From positions 1 to 43,806 of the forward strand of contig JAQBPX010000005.1 of assembly GCA_028287305.1 (NCBI GenBank): a stretch of 43,806 nucleotides of DNA, read 5' to 3'. The notes below the pieces were generated by a model, which saw only the letters and a list, made by a program, of their open reading frames with translations, had not been told where the DNA came from and made no database searches. Source of the stretch: Gemmatimonadota bacterium. GTDB taxonomy: Bacteria > Gemmatimonadota > Gemmatimonadetes > Gemmatimonadales > Gemmatimonadaceae. Both the position numbers and the translations under genes were made by a program. Shown here piece after piece: positions 25,151 to 31,759 of this stretch (its first letter is position 1; the number at the start of each line of letters is the position of its first letter).

Positions 25151-25390
25151 ATGGCCGACAACGCACAGAAGGTCCGCGACATCATCGAGAAGGAGCTTGG
25201 CGTCGAGCGCGAGAAGCTGACCGACGAGGCGAGCTTCATCGAGGACCTCGGCGCCGACAGCCTCGACATCGTCGAGCTGGTCATGGAGTTCGAGAAGGAG
25301 TTCAACATCGACATCCCCGATGAGGATGCCGAGAAGCTGCGCACGGTCGGCGACGCGGTCGGCTACCTCAATTCCAAGGTCACTGGCTGA
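25151..25390 (+). CDS. acpP: Acyl carrier protein
   Basis: AcpP carries the growing acyl chain on a phosphopantetheine arm. It has 79 residues, strongly acidic and predicted to be helical. The attachment serine is S37 in [12 protein letters not shown], and the following [17 protein letters not shown] is the recognition helix region. It is preceded by 66 non-coding bases with a promoter-like element and by a good GGAGAG ribosome-binding site, the clearest in this part of the window. It overlaps fabF by one base (TGATG). Confidence 0.98.
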
Positions 25391-26634
25391 TGAAGCGTCG
25401 GGTCGTCGTCACTGGTCTTGGGGCAGTCACGCCAATCGGCAACGATGTGGCGTCCGCCTGGCGCGCCGCGCAGGCGGGCACGTCGGGCTGCGCCACGATC
25501 ACGAAATTCGACCCGGCCCTCTTCCCGGTGCGGTTCGCCTGTGAGCTGAAGTCCTTCGACCCGCTGCTCACCATGGAGCGCAAGGAGGCGAAGCGCGCCG
25601 ACCCCTATGCGCAGTACGCCGTGGCGGCGTCGGTCGAGGCCATGAAGGACGCGGGCCTCGTGCCGGGCAACCACGACGTGGACCGCCTCGGCGTCATCGT
25701 GGGCAGCGGCATCGGCGGCCTCAAGTCGTTCGAGGAGCAGCACGACATCTACCGCGAGCGCGGGCCGAGTAAGATCTCGCCCTTCTTCATCCCGATGTTC
25801 ATCGCGGACATCGCCTCGGGCATCGTCTCGATGAAGTTCAACGCGCGCGGCCCGAACTACGCCACCGTCTCCGCCTGCGCCACCAGCGCGCACGCGATCG
25901 GCGACGCGTTCCGCACCATCCAGTACGGCGACGCCGACATCATCATCTCCGGTGGCGCGGAGGCGACCGTCACTCCGATGGCAATTGGCGGTTTCGCGAA
26001 CATGACCGCGCTCTCCACGCGCAACGACGACCCGGCCACCGCGTCGCGCCCCTTCGACCTCCATCGCGACGGCTTCGTGATGGGCGAGGGTGGCGGCATC
26101 GTGATCCTCGAGGAGCTCGAGCACGCGAAGCAGCGCGGCGCGCACATCTACGCCGAGATCGTGGGCTATCGCTCCACGGGCGATGCCTACCACCTCACCG
26201 GCCAGCTGCCCGAGCACGAGGGGCTGCAGCGCTCGATGCGCGGGGCGCTCGCCGACGCAGGCCTCACGGTGGCGGACATCGATTACGTCAACGCCCACGG
26301 CACCTCCACGCCGCTCAACGATTCCAACGAGGCGAAGGCCATCGCCGCGGTGTTCGGCGAGCATGCGGGCCGTATCAGCGTGTCGTCCACCAAGTCCATG
26401 ACGGGACACATGCTCGGCGCAGCCGGCGGCATCGAGTTCATCTTCTCGGTGCTGGCCATGCGCGACTCCATCGTGCCGCCCACGATCAACTACCAGACGC
26501 CGGATCCCGAATGCGGCGACCTGGACTTCACGCCCAACGCCGCGAAGCCGCGCGAAGTCCGCGCGGCACTCAGCAACAGCGCCGGCTTCGGGGGACACAA
26601 CGTGACCCTCGCCGTCCGCAAGTACCAGGAGTAG
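25390..26634 (+). CDS. fabF: 3-oxoacyl-ACP synthase II (KAS II)
   Basis: FabF elongates acyl-ACP by condensation with malonyl-ACP. It has 414 residues, the normal length. The catalytic residues are C163 in TVSACATSAHAIG, H303 in NAHGTSTPLND and H340 in KSMTGHMLGAAGG. The ending NSAGFGGHNVTLAVRKY is typical. It completes the plsX-fabH-fabD-fabG-acpP-fabF cluster. The next gene, mqnE, starts two bases after the stop, so fatty-acid and menaquinone genes probably share a transcript. Confidence 0.97.
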   Translation: MKRRVVVTGLGAVTPIGNDVASAWRAAQAGTSGCATITKFDPALFPVRFACELKSFDPLLTMERKEAKRADPYAQYAVAASVEAMKDAGLVPGNHDVDRLGVIVGSGIGGLKSFEEQHDIYRERGPSKISPFFIPMFIADIASGIVSMKFNARGPNYATVSACATSAHAIGDAFRTIQYGDADIIISGGAEATVTPMAIGGFANMTALSTRNDDPATASRPFDLHRDGFVMGEGGGIVILEELEHAKQRGAHIYAEIVGYRSTGDAYHLTGQLPEHEGLQRSMRGALADAGLTVADIDYVNAHGTSTPLNDSNEAKAIAAVFGEHAGRISVSSTKSMTGHMLGAAGGIEFIFSVLAMRDSIVPPTINYQTPDPECGDLDFTPNAAKPREVRAALSNSAGFGGHNVTLAVRKYQE

Positions 26635-26636
26635 TC

Positions 26637-27818
26637 GTGCCCCAGCCCGTTGCGATCGACCGCCAGCGCCTCGCCGACCCGGCCCTCCTTCCGCTGGCCG
26701 ACAAGATCGAGCGTGGCGTGCGCCTCACCGTGGAGGATGGCGCCATCCTCTTTCGCACGGGTGACCTGCTGGGGCTGGGTGCCATGGCCGACGCCGTGAA
26801 TCGCGCGAAGCACGGGAATCTCGTGACCTTCGCGGCGAACCACCACATCAATCCCACGAACATCTGCATCCTGCGGAAGACCTGCGTCTTCTGCTCGTAC
26901 GCGCGCCTCCCGAAGGAAGCGGGCGCCTATCGCTACACCATGGACCAGGTGTGGGCGGAGGCGGCGACCGCGAACAGCACGCTCACGCGCGAGTTCCACA
27001 TCGTGGGCGGCCTCGACATGCACGCGGGGCTCGCGTACTACACCGAGATGTTTCGCGGGCTGAAGGAGCGCCACCCGCAGGTCCACATCAAGGCGCTCAC
27101 GGCCGTCGAGATCGCGCACATCGCGCGCATCGACAAGATGACGATCCGCGACGTCCTCGTGGCGCTCCGCGAGGCGGGGCTCGACACCATGCCCGGCGGC
27201 GGCGCCGAAGTGTTCAGCCCCGGTGTTCGCGCCACCATCGCCGAGAAGAAGCTGTCGGGCGAGGAGTACATCGGCGTTCACCGCATCGCGCACGAACTCG
27301 GGATCCGCACGAACACCACCATGCTCTACGGGCACGTGGAGAGCATCGAGGATCGCATGGCCCACCTCGCGATGCTGCGCGACCTGCAGGACGAGACGGG
27401 CGGCTTCCTTGCCTACATCCCGCTTGCGTATCATCCAGACAACAACGAGCTGGGCGAGACGCTCGGCCGCACGGGCACCGCGACCACCGGCTTCGACGAC
27501 CTGAAGAACCTGGCGGTGGGCCGCCTGTTCCTCGACAACGTGGAGCACATCAAGTCGCACTGGATCATGGTCTCCACGGCGCTCTCGCAGGCATCGCTGC
27601 ACTTCGGCGTGAACGACCTGGAGGGCACCGTGGTGCGCGAGAAGATCTATCATGAGGCCGGCGCGCACACGGCCCAGGCCATGACGCTTGCCGAGCTGCT
27701 GCGCCTCATTCGCGGGGCGGGGAAGGTGCCCGCCGAGCGCGACTCGTTCTACCACGTGATCCGCACCGACTTCGAGCCGGACCTTCCCGCCGCGCCGGCG
27801 CTCGCCGGCGCGGCGTAG
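26637..27818 (+). CDS. mqnE: Aminofutalosine synthase MqnE (radical SAM)
   Basis: MqnE joins the MqnA product, 3-[(1-carboxyvinyl)oxy]benzoate, to S-adenosylmethionine to give aminofutalosine in the futalosine route to menaquinone. It has 393 residues from a GTG at 26637; the first in-frame ATG (26784) would remove about 50 residues. The radical-SAM cysteines are C77, C83 and C86 in NICILRKTCVFCSYAR, which is CX5CX2C rather than the canonical CX3CX2C. Other family stretches are EFHIVGGLDMHAGLAYY, GLDTMPGGGAEVF and LAYIPLAYHPDNNEL. Assignment to MqnE rather than MqnC rests on overall resemblance and on the separate mqnC downstream. It lies two bases after fabF and eight before mqnA. Confidence 0.9.
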   Translation: MPQPVAIDRQRLADPALLPLADKIERGVRLTVEDGAILFRTGDLLGLGAMADAVNRAKHGNLVTFAANHHINPTNICILRKTCVFCSYARLPKEAGAYRYTMDQVWAEAATANSTLTREFHIVGGLDMHAGLAYYTEMFRGLKERHPQVHIKALTAVEIAHIARIDKMTIRDVLVALREAGLDTMPGGGAEVFSPGVRATIAEKKLSGEEYIGVHRIAHELGIRTNTTMLYGHVESIEDRMAHLAMLRDLQDETGGFLAYIPLAYHPDNNELGETLGRTGTATTGFDDLKNLAVGRLFLDNVEHIKSHWIMVSTALSQASLHFGVNDLEGTVVREKIYHEAGAHTAQAMTLAELLRLIRGAGKVPAERDSFYHVIRTDFEPDLPAAPALAGAA

Positions 27819-27826
27819 GCCGCGAC

Positions 27827-28699
27827 GTGCGCGTCGGGCGCATCGCGTACATCAACTGCTACCCGGTGTACGGGGCCATCGACCGCGGCCTCGTGTCGCT
27901 CGACGCGGAGCTGGTGGATGGCGTGCCCAGCGCGCTCAACCGGCAGATGGCCGAGGGCGCGCTCGACATCAGCGTGATCTCCGCCGTGGAGTACGCGCGC
28001 GATGCCCAGCGCTACCTGCTGCTCCCCGACCTCGCGATCAGCTGCGATGGGCCCGTGCGCAGCGTCATGCTCTTCTCCAAGCGCCCCGCCTCCGAGCTGT
28101 CGGGGCGCCGCGTGCTCGTGAGTCGCAGCTCGATGACGAGCGTCGCGCTGCTGGAGTTGCTGTTCGAGCACGTGTTCGACGCGCGCCCCACGTTCGTGCC
28201 GAGCGACGCCGAGATGGCCGACGTCGCCGGCTTCGACGACGAGGAGCATGACGCGCGGCTCGTGATCGGCGACGCAGCGCTGGTGCTTGGCGCGCGCCTT
28301 CGCGACCGGCTCGATGGCACCAGCGGCAACGGCGACAACACGCTCCTGCCGCAGTACCGCTATGCGTACGACCTCGGCGCGGAGTGGAAGCACTGGACCG
28401 GGCTGCCGTTCGTGTTCGCCGTGTGGGTGGCGCAGCGCACGGCACCGGTGGATCGCGCGCTCGCGGTGCACGCGCAGCTGATCGCGAGCCGCAACTGGGG
28501 CATCGCGCACCTCGAGCCGCTGGCCGCGCAGGCTGCGCTGGCCACCGGCGTGAGTCGCCCGACCTGCCTCGAGTATCTCTCGGGACTAGATTATGGATTG
28601 AGCTACGGTCACCTGGCCGGGCTCACCGAGTTCTTTCGCCGGCTCGTCGTCGCGGGGCGCGTTCCCGACGGCTCGCTGGCCTTCCTCCCGGCGGCGTAG
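27827..28699 (+). CDS. mqnA: Chorismate dehydratase MqnA
   Basis: MqnA removes water from chorismate to give 3-[(1-carboxyvinyl)oxy]benzoate, the first committed step of the futalosine pathway. It has 290 residues from GTG 27827 with the family opening RVGRIAYINCYPVYGAID, where other members read RIG-I-Y-N. Further signatures are DGVPSALNRQMAEG, DISVISAVEYA and the middle LVIGDAALVL; the fold is a periplasmic-binding-protein type. It sits between mqnE and mqnC, which makes the assignment secure. Confidence 0.93.
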   Translation: MRVGRIAYINCYPVYGAIDRGLVSLDAELVDGVPSALNRQMAEGALDISVISAVEYARDAQRYLLLPDLAISCDGPVRSVMLFSKRPASELSGRRVLVSRSSMTSVALLELLFEHVFDARPTFVPSDAEMADVAGFDDEEHDARLVIGDAALVLGARLRDRLDGTSGNGDNTLLPQYRYAYDLGAEWKHWTGLPFVFAVWVAQRTAPVDRALAVHAQLIASRNWGIAHLEPLAAQAALATGVSRPTCLEYLSGLDYGLSYGHLAGLTEFFRRLVVAGRVPDGSLAFLPAA

Positions 28700-28700
28700 C

Positions 28701-29738
28701 ATGGATCGCGACCTGCTCGACTTCTACACGAACGCACCGCTCCTCGAGCTGGGAGCGGAGGCGGATCGCATTCGCCGCCAGATGCATCCCGGGGGCGTGG
28801 TCACGTACATCGTGGACCGCAACATCAACTATACGAACGTCTGCGTGGCCGACTGCGGCTTCTGCGCGTTCGCGCGGCGACCCAAGCATGGCGAGGGCTA
28901 CACGCTCTCGTTCGAGCAGATCGGCCAGAAGATCGACGAGACCAAGGCGCTGGGCGGGGTACAGATCCTCATCCAGGGCGGCCACAACCCGTACATCCCG
29001 TTCGAGTGGTACCTGGACCTGCTGCGCTACATCAAGCGCAACCACCAGATCCACATCCACGGCTTCAGCCCGAGCGAGGTGGACTTCTTCGCGAAGACCT
29101 TCCGCATGGAAGCGGTGGAAGTGATTCGCGAGCTGCAGAAGGCCGGGCTCGACTCGATCCCCGGCGGCGGCGGCGAGATCCTGGTGCAGCGCGTGCGGGA
29201 CATCGCCGCGCCGAAGAAGGCGGGCGCCGATCGCTGGCTCGAGATCATGGAGCTGGCGCACGGCGAGGGCATGAAGACCAGCGTGACCATGATGTACGGC
29301 CTGGGCGAGACCCTCGCCGAGCGCCTGGAGCATCTCGCGCGGGTGGAAGAGGTCCAGAAGCGCACGGGCGGATTCACCGCGTTCATCACGTGGCCGCTGC
29401 AGCCCGAAAACACGCCCACCTTCTCGCACATGCAGAAGACGGACGCCGTGGACCACCTGCGCACTGTGGCGATCTCGCGGATCGCGCTGCCGAGCGTGCC
29501 GAACCTGCAGGCGAGCTGGGTGACGATGGGCTTCAAGATCGGGCAGCTGGCACTGACCTTTGGCTGCAACGACTTCGGCTCCCTCATGATCGAGGAGAAC
29601 GTGGTCTCGGCGGCGAACACCACGCACAAGACCACCACGGCCGAGATGGAGCGCCTGATCCGCGACGCTGGCTTCATCCCGGCGCGGCGCCGTCAGGACT
29701 ACTCGATCATCCGGCTCGCCGAGCCCGTCGCCGCCTGA
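28701..29738 (+). CDS. mqnC: Cyclic dehypoxanthinyl futalosine synthase MqnC (radical SAM)
   Basis: MqnC cyclises dehypoxanthine futalosine into its spiro form, a later radical-SAM step of the futalosine route. It has 345 residues. The cluster motif is canonical: C48, C52 and C55 in NYTNVCVADCGFCAFARRP (CX3CX2C). Other conserved parts are ILIQGGHNPYIPFEWY, the HIHGFSPSEVDFFAK segment and GLDSIPGGGGEILV. The ATG follows the mqnA stop by one base. The hydrolase (MqnB-type) and MqnD are not in the window. Confidence 0.94.
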   Translation: MDRDLLDFYTNAPLLELGAEADRIRRQMHPGGVVTYIVDRNINYTNVCVADCGFCAFARRPKHGEGYTLSFEQIGQKIDETKALGGVQILIQGGHNPYIPFEWYLDLLRYIKRNHQIHIHGFSPSEVDFFAKTFRMEAVEVIRELQKAGLDSIPGGGGEILVQRVRDIAAPKKAGADRWLEIMELAHGEGMKTSVTMMYGLGETLAERLEHLARVEEVQKRTGGFTAFITWPLQPENTPTFSHMQKTDAVDHLRTVAISRIALPSVPNLQASWVTMGFKIGQLALTFGCNDFGSLMIEENVVSAANTTHKTTTAEMERLIRDAGFIPARRRQDYSIIRLAEPVAA

Positions 29739-30229
29739 GCGGCGCGACGGGGACCCGCGTCGGCATCGGCTACGACTCGCATCGCTTTGCCGAGCCGGGG
29801 CCGCTGGTCCTCGGCGGCGTGCGCATCGAGTCGCCGGTGCGACTGAAGGGACACTCCGATGGCGATGCGATCTGTCACGCAGTCACCGATGCCGTGCTGG
29901 GCGCGGCCGCCCTTGGTGACATCGGCGCGATGTTCGCCGACACGGATCCGGCCAACAAGGATCGGGACTCCATCGGCATGTTGCGCGACGCCGTGGCGAG
30001 GGTGAACGGCGCCGGCTGGGTGGTGCAGCAGGTGGACGTGGTGGTCGTGGCGGAGCAACCGAAGATCGCGCCGCATCGCGAGGCGATGGCGAGCGCGGTC
30101 GCGGCCGCGCTCGGCGTGGAAGTGTCGGCCGTGTCGATCAAGGGAAAGACGAACGAGGGCATGGGCTGGATCGGGCGGGGCGAGGGAATCGCCTGCATGG
30201 CCGTGGCCACGCTCGTCGCCCGCGACTGA
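29735..30229 (+). CDS. ispF: 2-C-methyl-D-erythritol 2,4-cyclodiphosphate synthase, non-ATG start
   Basis: IspF makes the cyclic diphosphate of the MEP isoprenoid pathway, which feeds the menaquinone side chain and carrier lipids. Metal ligands D14, H16 and H48 are visible in GYDSHRF and DAICHAVTDA; GKTNEGMGWIGRGEGIA forms the C-terminal substrate region. There is no ATG, GTG or TTG in frame between the upstream gene and RVGIGYDSH. The best candidate is CTG at 29735, which overlaps the mqnC stop as CTGA, analogous to the ATGA and GTGA junctions elsewhere, and gives 164 residues. The start codon is therefore inference; the coding sequence is otherwise intact. Confidence 0.9.
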   Translation: MSGATGTRVGIGYDSHRFAEPGPLVLGGVRIESPVRLKGHSDGDAICHAVTDAVLGAAALGDIGAMFADTDPANKDRDSIGMLRDAVARVNGAGWVVQQVDVVVVAEQPKIAPHREAMASAVAAALGVEVSAVSIKGKTNEGMGWIGRGEGIACMAVATLVARD

Positions 30230-30239
30230 CGGCAGCGAG

Positions 30240-30854
30240 GTGCTGCAAGCCATCATCGGCTGGCTCACGTCGCTGCCACCCTGGGCGCTGTATCTCGCGC
30301 TCGCGCTGTTCGCCGCGCTCGAGAACGTGTTTCCCCCCGTTCCCGCGGACACCATCGTCGCGCTCGGCGCCGTACTCGCGGCGCGTGGGCAGGCGAACAT
30401 CTTCGTGGCCTTCGCGACAACGCTCGTCGGCAACGTCTCTGGCGCGGCGCTCATGTACACGCTGGGCCGCCGTCACGGCGCCGAGCATCTCGAGAAGCGG
30501 CTGGGTGCGACGGAGACTTCCCGGGAGAAGCTCGAGTCCTACTACGGGCGGCACGGTCTCGGCGCGCTGTTCGTCAGCCGATTCGTGCCCGGTGTGCGGG
30601 CGCTCGTGCCCCCGTTCGCCGGTGCCGCGCGAGTGCCGGCCGGCCGGGCGATCGGCGTGATGGCGGTGGCGTCGGCGATCTGGTATGGCGCCATCAGCTG
30701 GGTGGGCTTCCGCATCGGCAGCGACTTTCCTCGGCTGATGCGGATCATCCAGCGCTCGGAGCGCTGGATCGGCGCGGTCGCTGCACTCCTGCTGCTTGGG
30801 TTCGGGATCGCGTGGTGGCGCCGCCGGCGCCACCACGCGTCGAGGGCATCGTGA
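30240..30854 (+). CDS. DedA family membrane protein
   Basis: DedA-family (SNARE-associated/VTT-type) proteins are integral membrane proteins; several are implicated in undecaprenyl phosphate or phospholipid translocation. This one has 204 residues from GTG 30240 and four to five hydrophobic segments. Recognisable family elements are ENVFPPVPADTIVALGAV near residues 28-45 and the FVSRFVPGVRALVPPFAG motif near 110-127. The C-terminus is very basic (WWRRRRHHASRAS). It overlaps the xerD start by one base. Its lipid substrate cannot be deduced. Confidence 0.88.
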   Translation: MLQAIIGWLTSLPPWALYLALALFAALENVFPPVPADTIVALGAVLAARGQANIFVAFATTLVGNVSGAALMYTLGRRHGAEHLEKRLGATETSREKLESYYGRHGLGALFVSRFVPGVRALVPPFAGAARVPAGRAIGVMAVASAIWYGAISWVGFRIGSDFPRLMRIIQRSERWIGAVAALLLLGFGIAWWRRRRHHASRAS

Positions 30855-31759
30855 TGGATGACTCGCACGCCCGCGCATTCCTGCTCGAGCGATTCGCGGA
30901 CTTTCTCGCGCTCGAGCAGGGCGCGTCGCCGCGCACCAGCGAGGCCTATGCGCGAGATGTCGGGCGACTGGCGGAGTTCTCGCTGGCGAAGGGCTTCGCC
31001 ACCCCCGGAGAGCTTTCGCCGCGCCTGCTGCGCGACTTCGTGTTCCACCTCAAGGACCTCGGGCTCGCGCCCGCCTCCATCCGCCGCACGATTTCCGGCG
31101 TGCGGACGTACTATCGCTTCCTGCTTGGCGACGGGGTGGTGGTGCGCGATCCCAGCGAGCGACTCGAGACGCCGAAGCGCGGTCGCACGCTGCCGGACGT
31201 GCTGAGCGTGGAGGAAGTCGAGAAGCTGCTCGCGTCGCCCTCCATGGACGACGCCCTGTACTTTCGCGATCGCGCGATGCTGGAGCTGGCGTATGGCGCG
31301 GGGCTTCGCGTGTCGGAGTGGATCACGCTCGGCGTGCGCGACCTGTTGCTCGAGGATGGATTGGTGCGCGTCTTCGGCAAGGGCAGCAAGGAGCGGCTGG
31401 TGCCCATCGGCCGCTCGGCGATCACTGCCGCGGCCATCTATTCGCGCGAGCTCCGGCCGAAGCTCGAGAAGGGCGAAGGGAAGGGGATCCTCTTCCTGAA
31501 CGCGAGGGGGCGACCGCTCTCCCGGATGGGCGCATGGCTGATCCTCCGGCGGCATGTCGAGCGCGTGGGCATCGAAAAAGAGGTGTCCCCGCATACATTG
31601 CGGCACTCCTTCGCCACGCACCTCCTGGAGGGCGGAGCCGACCTGCGCGCGGTCCAGGAAATGCTTGGGCACGCTGACATCTCCACCACGCAGATCTACA
31701 CGCACGTGGACCGCGAGTACCTGCGCACGGTGCATCGCCAGTTCCATCCCCGAGGCTGA
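30854..31759 (+). CDS. xerD: Tyrosine recombinase, XerD type
   Basis: XerC and XerD resolve chromosome dimers at dif sites. The protein has 301 residues from the ATG at 30854 (a GTG at 30851 is also in frame). The N-terminal core-binding domain spans about 8-92. All catalytic residues are in place: R152 (GAGLRVSEW), K176 (FGKGSKERLVP), H247 and R250 (PHTLRHSFATHLLEGGADLR), H273 (LGHADISTTQ) and Y282 (IYTHV). Positions are shifted only a few residues from E. coli XerD. Its place among envelope genes, with no mobile-element signs, supports the housekeeping role; distinguishing XerD from XerC by eye is less secure. Confidence 0.93.
   Translation: MDDSHARAFLLERFADFLALEQGASPRTSEAYARDVGRLAEFSLAKGFATPGELSPRLLRDFVFHLKDLGLAPASIRRTISGVRTYYRFLLGDGVVVRDPSERLETPKRGRTLPDVLSVEEVEKLLASPSMDDALYFRDRAMLELAYGAGLRVSEWITLGVRDLLLEDGLVRVFGKGSKERLVPIGRSAITAAAIYSRELRPKLEKGEGKGILFLNARGRPLSRMGAWLILRRHVERVGIEKEVSPHTLRHSFATHLLEGGADLRAVQEMLGHADISTTQIYTHVDREYLRTVHRQFHPRG

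Follow-up and report, generated by a model that had tools for sequence, protein, structure and literature searches.

The aminofutalosine synthase MqnE of a Gemmatimonadota bacterium carries its radical-SAM cysteines in a CX5CX2C motif, and this spacing is the fixed form of MqnE in six families of the phylum, a real lineage variant. The protein is very probably a working aminofutalosine synthase with a cluster loop longer by two residues and unchanged chemistry; we infer its activity from family, fold, conserved residues and gene neighbourhood. The pathway around it is ordinary, and it is the cluster loop that is unusual. CX3CX2C is described as the hallmark of the radical-SAM enzymes, and the reaction of MqnE as a radical addition to an enol ether (both PMC5352715). 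The window, that is, the whole stretch of DNA analysed (43,806 nucleotides), holds the following features.

25390..26634, + strand: fabF (beta-ketoacyl-ACP synthase II), directly 5' of mqnE (TIGR03150, 614.3 bits; frequent neighbour in relatives)
26637..27818, + strand: mqnE, aminofutalosine (aminodeoxyfutalosine) synthase, CX5CX2C form (TIGR03700, 429.2 bits; model closest to 6xig/6xi9)
26865..26894, + strand: radical-SAM cluster motif C77-ILRKT-C83-VF-C86, CX5CX2C (direct reading of the sequence)
26868..26882, + strand: loop ILRKT between the first and second cysteines, five residues, two more than the CX3CX2C loop (alignment with CX3CX2C homologues; DSSP; gap against 6xi9)
27827..28699, + strand: mqnA (VitK2_biosynth, PF02621; Pfam, 220.6 bits)
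28701..29738, + strand: mqnC, canonical CX3CX2C (CVADCGFC), the control within the operon (TIGR03699, 458.3 bits, cut-off 428.1)

The mqnE product has 393 amino acids and begins at a GTG start at 26637. The TGC codons at 26865-26867, 26883-26885 and 26892-26894 encode C77, C83 and C86, which are the only three cysteines of the protein and all lie within the motif. The sequence-only reading of this DNA had assigned these three residues to CX5CX2C and had noted that MqnC of the same operon retains CX3CX2C, and both assignments were borne out, the latter by CVADCGFC. Because its spacing is CX5CX2C and not CX3CX2C, the window MqnE is classed here as a variant. The cysteines are invariant in our alignment A1, but necessarily so: the rest of its rows were gathered through the CX5CX2C motif.

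The spacing was also read in genes obtained independently of the motif. All 66 MqnE genes fetched by similarity or place (42 from family f1, the window included, and 24 from f2, f3, f4, f7 and f9) have CX5CX2C. The pattern N-[IVM]-C-X5-C-x-F-C-x-[FY] was present in 166 of the 298 Gemmatimonadota genomes (97 of 103 in f1, 59 of 69 in f2 and f3 together, 7 in f4, 2 in f9 and 1 in f7), and the same pattern written backwards, as a control, gave 0. The idea of a chance cysteine was dropped on these counts. A sequencing or assembly error, for which the sequence-only reading had named the insertion of two codons as a refuting case, would have to recur with identical frame and spacing throughout the 66 genes and the 166 genomes; it is refuted, with practically no probability left to it. 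The pattern-negative genomes (6 in f1 and 10 in f2/f3) gave either no match or a match in the MqnC range only (1e-54 to 1e-62), and thus, among the matches listed, no MqnE-bearing genome that lacks CX5CX2C was found in f1 and f2/f3, nor in the six families as a whole. A search with the window protein gave matches of some kind, MqnC included, in 191 of the 298 genomes. The eight MqnE read in three other Gemmatimonadota families (two in f8, one in f10, five in f11) are CX3CX2C; weaker hits, which lie in f5, f6 and a single genome of f11, do not enter this tally. Two oddities were seen in single genomes. On the chromosome of a Gemmatimonadota metagenome-assembled genome (L184, CP070666.1, 1718-2131) MqnE is present only as an N-terminal fragment of 138 aligned residues (49% identity) that keeps CX5CX2C, and the gene looks broken or misassembled. 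In the MqnC of another genome (L057, G005), which reads NIRISRCRFC, the first cluster cysteine is replaced by an arginine, which could be an assembly error.

The best NCBIfam model for the window MqnE is that of MqnE itself (TIGR03700), at 429.2 bits against a curated cut-off of 434.55, thus 5.35 bits under it. Nine of the ten other CX5CX2C proteins scanned exceed this cut-off (442.4 bits for L111 and 441.8 for L150, for example), and the tenth, L084, scores 432.3. Other family identities were rejected: MqnC (TIGR03699) was second best, at 344.1 bits against a cut-off of 428.1; CofH (TIGR03551) scored 300.2 against 374.1; and HcgA/HmdB (TIGR03957), a family whose CX5CX2C spacing the protein does possess, scored 26.9 against 320.9, over residues 209-362 only. 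An AlphaFold model of the window MqnE, built from 42 sequences and modelled with the cluster site empty, had a mean pLDDT of 90.5. It superposed on 6xig_B with Z 45.8 and 2.1 Å over 359 residues at 38% identity, the next entry from another family having Z 30.6, and Foldseek gave TM values of 0.84/0.86. A search of solved structures at E 0.01 found a single distinct sequence, the Pedobacter heparinus MqnE of 6xi9 and 6xig. Its fold is alike, with matched residues along positions 15-379 of the window protein; it has CX3CX2C, whereas the window MqnE has two more residues between the first and second cysteines. In our single predicted model, loop residues 78-81 form one helical turn by DSSP, in contrast to the coil of the CX3CX2C loop in a model of MqnC, the same-pathway paralogue from the operon that served as control; this contrast is weak because both models are cluster-free. 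Family score and fold together uphold the view of the sequence-only reading that the remainder of MqnE is intact, with the score slightly below the cut-off.

The gene order points to the same pathway. Judged by similarity to the FabF, MqnA and MqnC of the window inside loci of limited length, 89 Gemmatimonadota-type loci were compared, and the whole order fabF-mqnE-mqnA-mqnC is present in 58 and a part of it in the other 31. By the same measure mqnE and mqnA are together in 32 of 32 Poribacteria loci (31 different genes, one counted twice), and mqnE and mqnC in 3 of 3 loci of the NIOZ-UU57 phylum. On the other side, mqnA, mqnC and fabF were found beside none of the 17 Acidobacteriota CX5CX2C loci (repeats included). 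The mqnA product of the window had no NCBIfam match at 0.001. A further PF02621 gene lies elsewhere in the genome (C36:2930-3703) and is presumably mqnD, and Gemmatimonadales are reported to favour the futalosine pathway (PMC9426454). Downstream of mqnC (29744-31759) we observed an ispF-like gene (PF02542) and genes for a membrane protein with a VTT domain (PF09335) and for a recombinase of the phage integrase family (PF00589).

The departure from the canonical cluster motif, along with the score slightly below the MqnE cut-off, might suggest that the CX5CX2C proteins are a neofunctionalised radical-SAM enzyme that has lost the role of aminofutalosine synthase. We consider this very improbable. 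The mqnA and mqnC genes adjoin mqnE, the fold and the conserved residues are retained, and nine of the ten relatives clear the cut-off. The TIGR03700 matches of the window's own genome are limited to mqnE and MqnC, so no other MqnE-like gene is present there to take over the function. In the 16 CX5CX2C genomes scanned in the same way the matches are likewise confined to their own mqnE and genes in the MqnC range (the second match of G220 is partial, and G160 has one extra weak partial match), and hence no canonical MqnE substitutes in them.

For a working synthase, C77, C83 and C86 would hold three irons of the [4Fe-4S] cluster, with SAM on the fourth. The 5'-deoxyadenosyl radical would add to 3-[(1-carboxyvinyl)oxy]benzoate to give aminofutalosine, which would proceed via MqnC to menaquinone, as with other MqnE. 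The two extra residues would add one turn to the loop around the cluster, with the barrel unaltered; they may tune the cluster potential, its shielding or the docking of an electron donor. We know of no CX5CX2C MqnE with a demonstrated cluster, SAM cleavage or product. That the longer loop acts in donor choice or in the cluster potential is a tentative suggestion, to which we give clearly less than even weight.

The residues outside the loop were compared at the positions that are at least 85% conserved in 33 CX3CX2C MqnE rows, against four CX5CX2C groups. No position conserved in the 33 rows was found altered in all four groups, nor did the alignment with these rows yield any residue exclusive to CX5CX2C MqnE. 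On the other side, the Gemmatimonadota CX5CX2C clade departs by the substitutions F260Y, A317S and D329E (numbering of the window protein). A264, H266, P267, T283 and G285 were considered as markers and rejected; they are common to the CX5CX2C groups, but occur in 39 to 67% of the CX3CX2C rows. The finding that no further residue tracks exclusively with the insertion, and the apparently unchanged chemistry, would suit a tolerated insertion that was fixed by descent and that leaves potential, partner and stability unaffected. Such a neutral loop is compatible with a working MqnE and is a plausible account, if one with rather less than an even chance. Within the Gemmatimonadota clade, however, a reversal of the spacing was unseen and the loop shows the recurrent pattern x-L-[RN]-x-[TV]; both suggest constraint, and neutrality could still accommodate either.

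A motif scan of named genomes gave at least 117 stretches, at least 105 of which were judged to be MqnE (some partial, one broken). By title, at least 14 of these belong to Acidobacteriota or Thermoanaerobaculia, at least one to Poribacteria and at least one to NIOZ-UU57; the rest of those judged to be MqnE, at least 89, were assigned to Gemmatimonadota by title or motif type. Twelve of the 117 listed stretches were chance matches with no MqnE. In the Poribacteria phylum 70 of 78 genomes scored over the MqnE cut-off. The 46 genes read there include one fragment; 42 of them are CX5CX2C and 4 are CX3CX2C. In most of them SN precedes the motif, a form that escapes the TN pattern used to scan the named genomes and the Acidobacteriota. 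The four CX3CX2C genes of this phylum (L339-L342, in G641, G604, G673 and G656) are of a different type, NYTN[IV]CNK[FL]C[KR]FC, and one Poribacteria MqnE (L347, G662) reads CILHACCHFC, its additional loop cysteine making the spacing ambiguous. The cut-off was exceeded in 184 of 297 Acidobacteriota genomes, and the CX5CX2C pattern was present in 3 of the 297, two of these being search seeds. Among 72 Acidobacteriota genes, composed of the 30 best-scoring, 39 hand-picked lower ones and the 3 pattern matches, 3 are CX5CX2C and 69 are CX3CX2C. The NIOZ-UU57 phylum had 32 of 78 genomes over the cut-off, and 4 of 32 MqnE with CX5CX2C against 28 with CX3CX2C (L357 is under the cut-off). In Bacteroidota 14 of 61 genomes were over it, and all 14 MqnE are CX3CX2C. 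Genes were read in Gemmatimonadota, in these four phyla and in single copies from Streptomyces, Sulfurovum and Paenibacillus. The sequence-only reading, which took MqnE to be canonical, had asked whether CX5CX2C might instead be the common form: among the groups read outside Gemmatimonadota, this is so in Poribacteria only. The variant is also spread more widely than that reading thought, since it occurs in Poribacteria, in a small Acidobacteriota clade and in one more phylum.

A tree was computed with the motif columns excluded. From 282 MqnE of the loci (some genes repeated), reduced to 74 at 78% identity, 16 rows were removed by hand (one copy of the window protein, and others to thin crowded groups); the final tree has 65 rows, including the window protein and 6 MqnC. 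The Gemmatimonadota CX5CX2C proteins form one clade (support 100/100), and with no spacing reversal seen within it, the distinct MqnE subclass that the sequence-only reading had proposed is supported for this phylum. The CX5CX2C proteins of the NIOZ-UU57 phylum join this clade at 94/91, slightly under the mark for strong support, and those of Acidobacteriota and Poribacteria are placed apart from it. The best tree requires three changes of spacing, and the loop letters vary among lineages (ILRKT, VYTYN, ILHAR and VYAKS). These observations argue for at least three independent lengthenings of the loop (in Gemmatimonadota with the NIOZ-UU57 phylum, in Acidobacteriota and in Poribacteria), to which we give nearly an even chance. 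Against this, the AU test does not reject a single clade of all CX5CX2C rows, which costs 11.35 log units (p-AU 0.241); compared with a quick tree, the one-clade tree is better by 1.74 log units (p 0.538), and the deep branches of the MqnE tree are weakly supported. At least three independent gains, if true, would indicate a selected effect of the loop. They concern the origin of the spacing rather than its function, and are compatible with a working MqnE. It seems unlikely that the same expansion was gained at least three times in distant phyla, and nearly always kept in two lineages, as a means of fitting the [4Fe-4S] cluster to a different electron donor or to exposure to oxygen. Were this so, radical-SAM enzymes could evolve their redox control through the spacing of the cysteines.

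Since both spacings occur in a single enzyme family, and even in the same phylum, MqnE provides natural pairs in which the role of the loop can be probed. Searches with the canonical motif can overlook MqnE in lineages that depend on it, and MqnE is reportedly studied as an antibiotic target. Precedents for radical-SAM loops other than CX3CX2C may be seen, by analogy, in HcgA/HmdB and QueE. The CX5CX2C motif has been described as unique to HcgA (PMC10100467; PMC3087415) and termed 'less common' (PMC9431491); HmdB CX5CX2C and QueE CX14CX2C are both listed in the introduction of PMC4389238. HcgA/HmdB, of the [Fe]-hydrogenase cofactor, shares the spacing of the window MqnE but is a different family (PMC10100467). 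QueE likewise has an extended loop between the first two cysteines, but it belongs to another subfamily and its insertion is far longer; its cluster site is described as canonical with one loop extended (PMC4389238). In the open-licence PMC text matched by the term CX5CX2C in this spelling, radical-SAM papers use it for the motif of HcgA or HmdB, with MqnE, futalosine and menaquinone unmentioned; other uses concern ferredoxins, RseC and P450 partners. The same collection gave nothing on Gemmatimonas with mqnE or on Poribacteria with futalosine.

MqnE is also carried on plasmids, and the copies read, one each from a plasmid of Streptomyces, Sulfurovum and Paenibacillus, have the CX3CX2C spacing. 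On plasmid p1 of Streptomyces angustmyceticus (L399), which holds the mqn cluster, a ferredoxin gene lies directly 3' of mqnE, and its product is a candidate electron donor.
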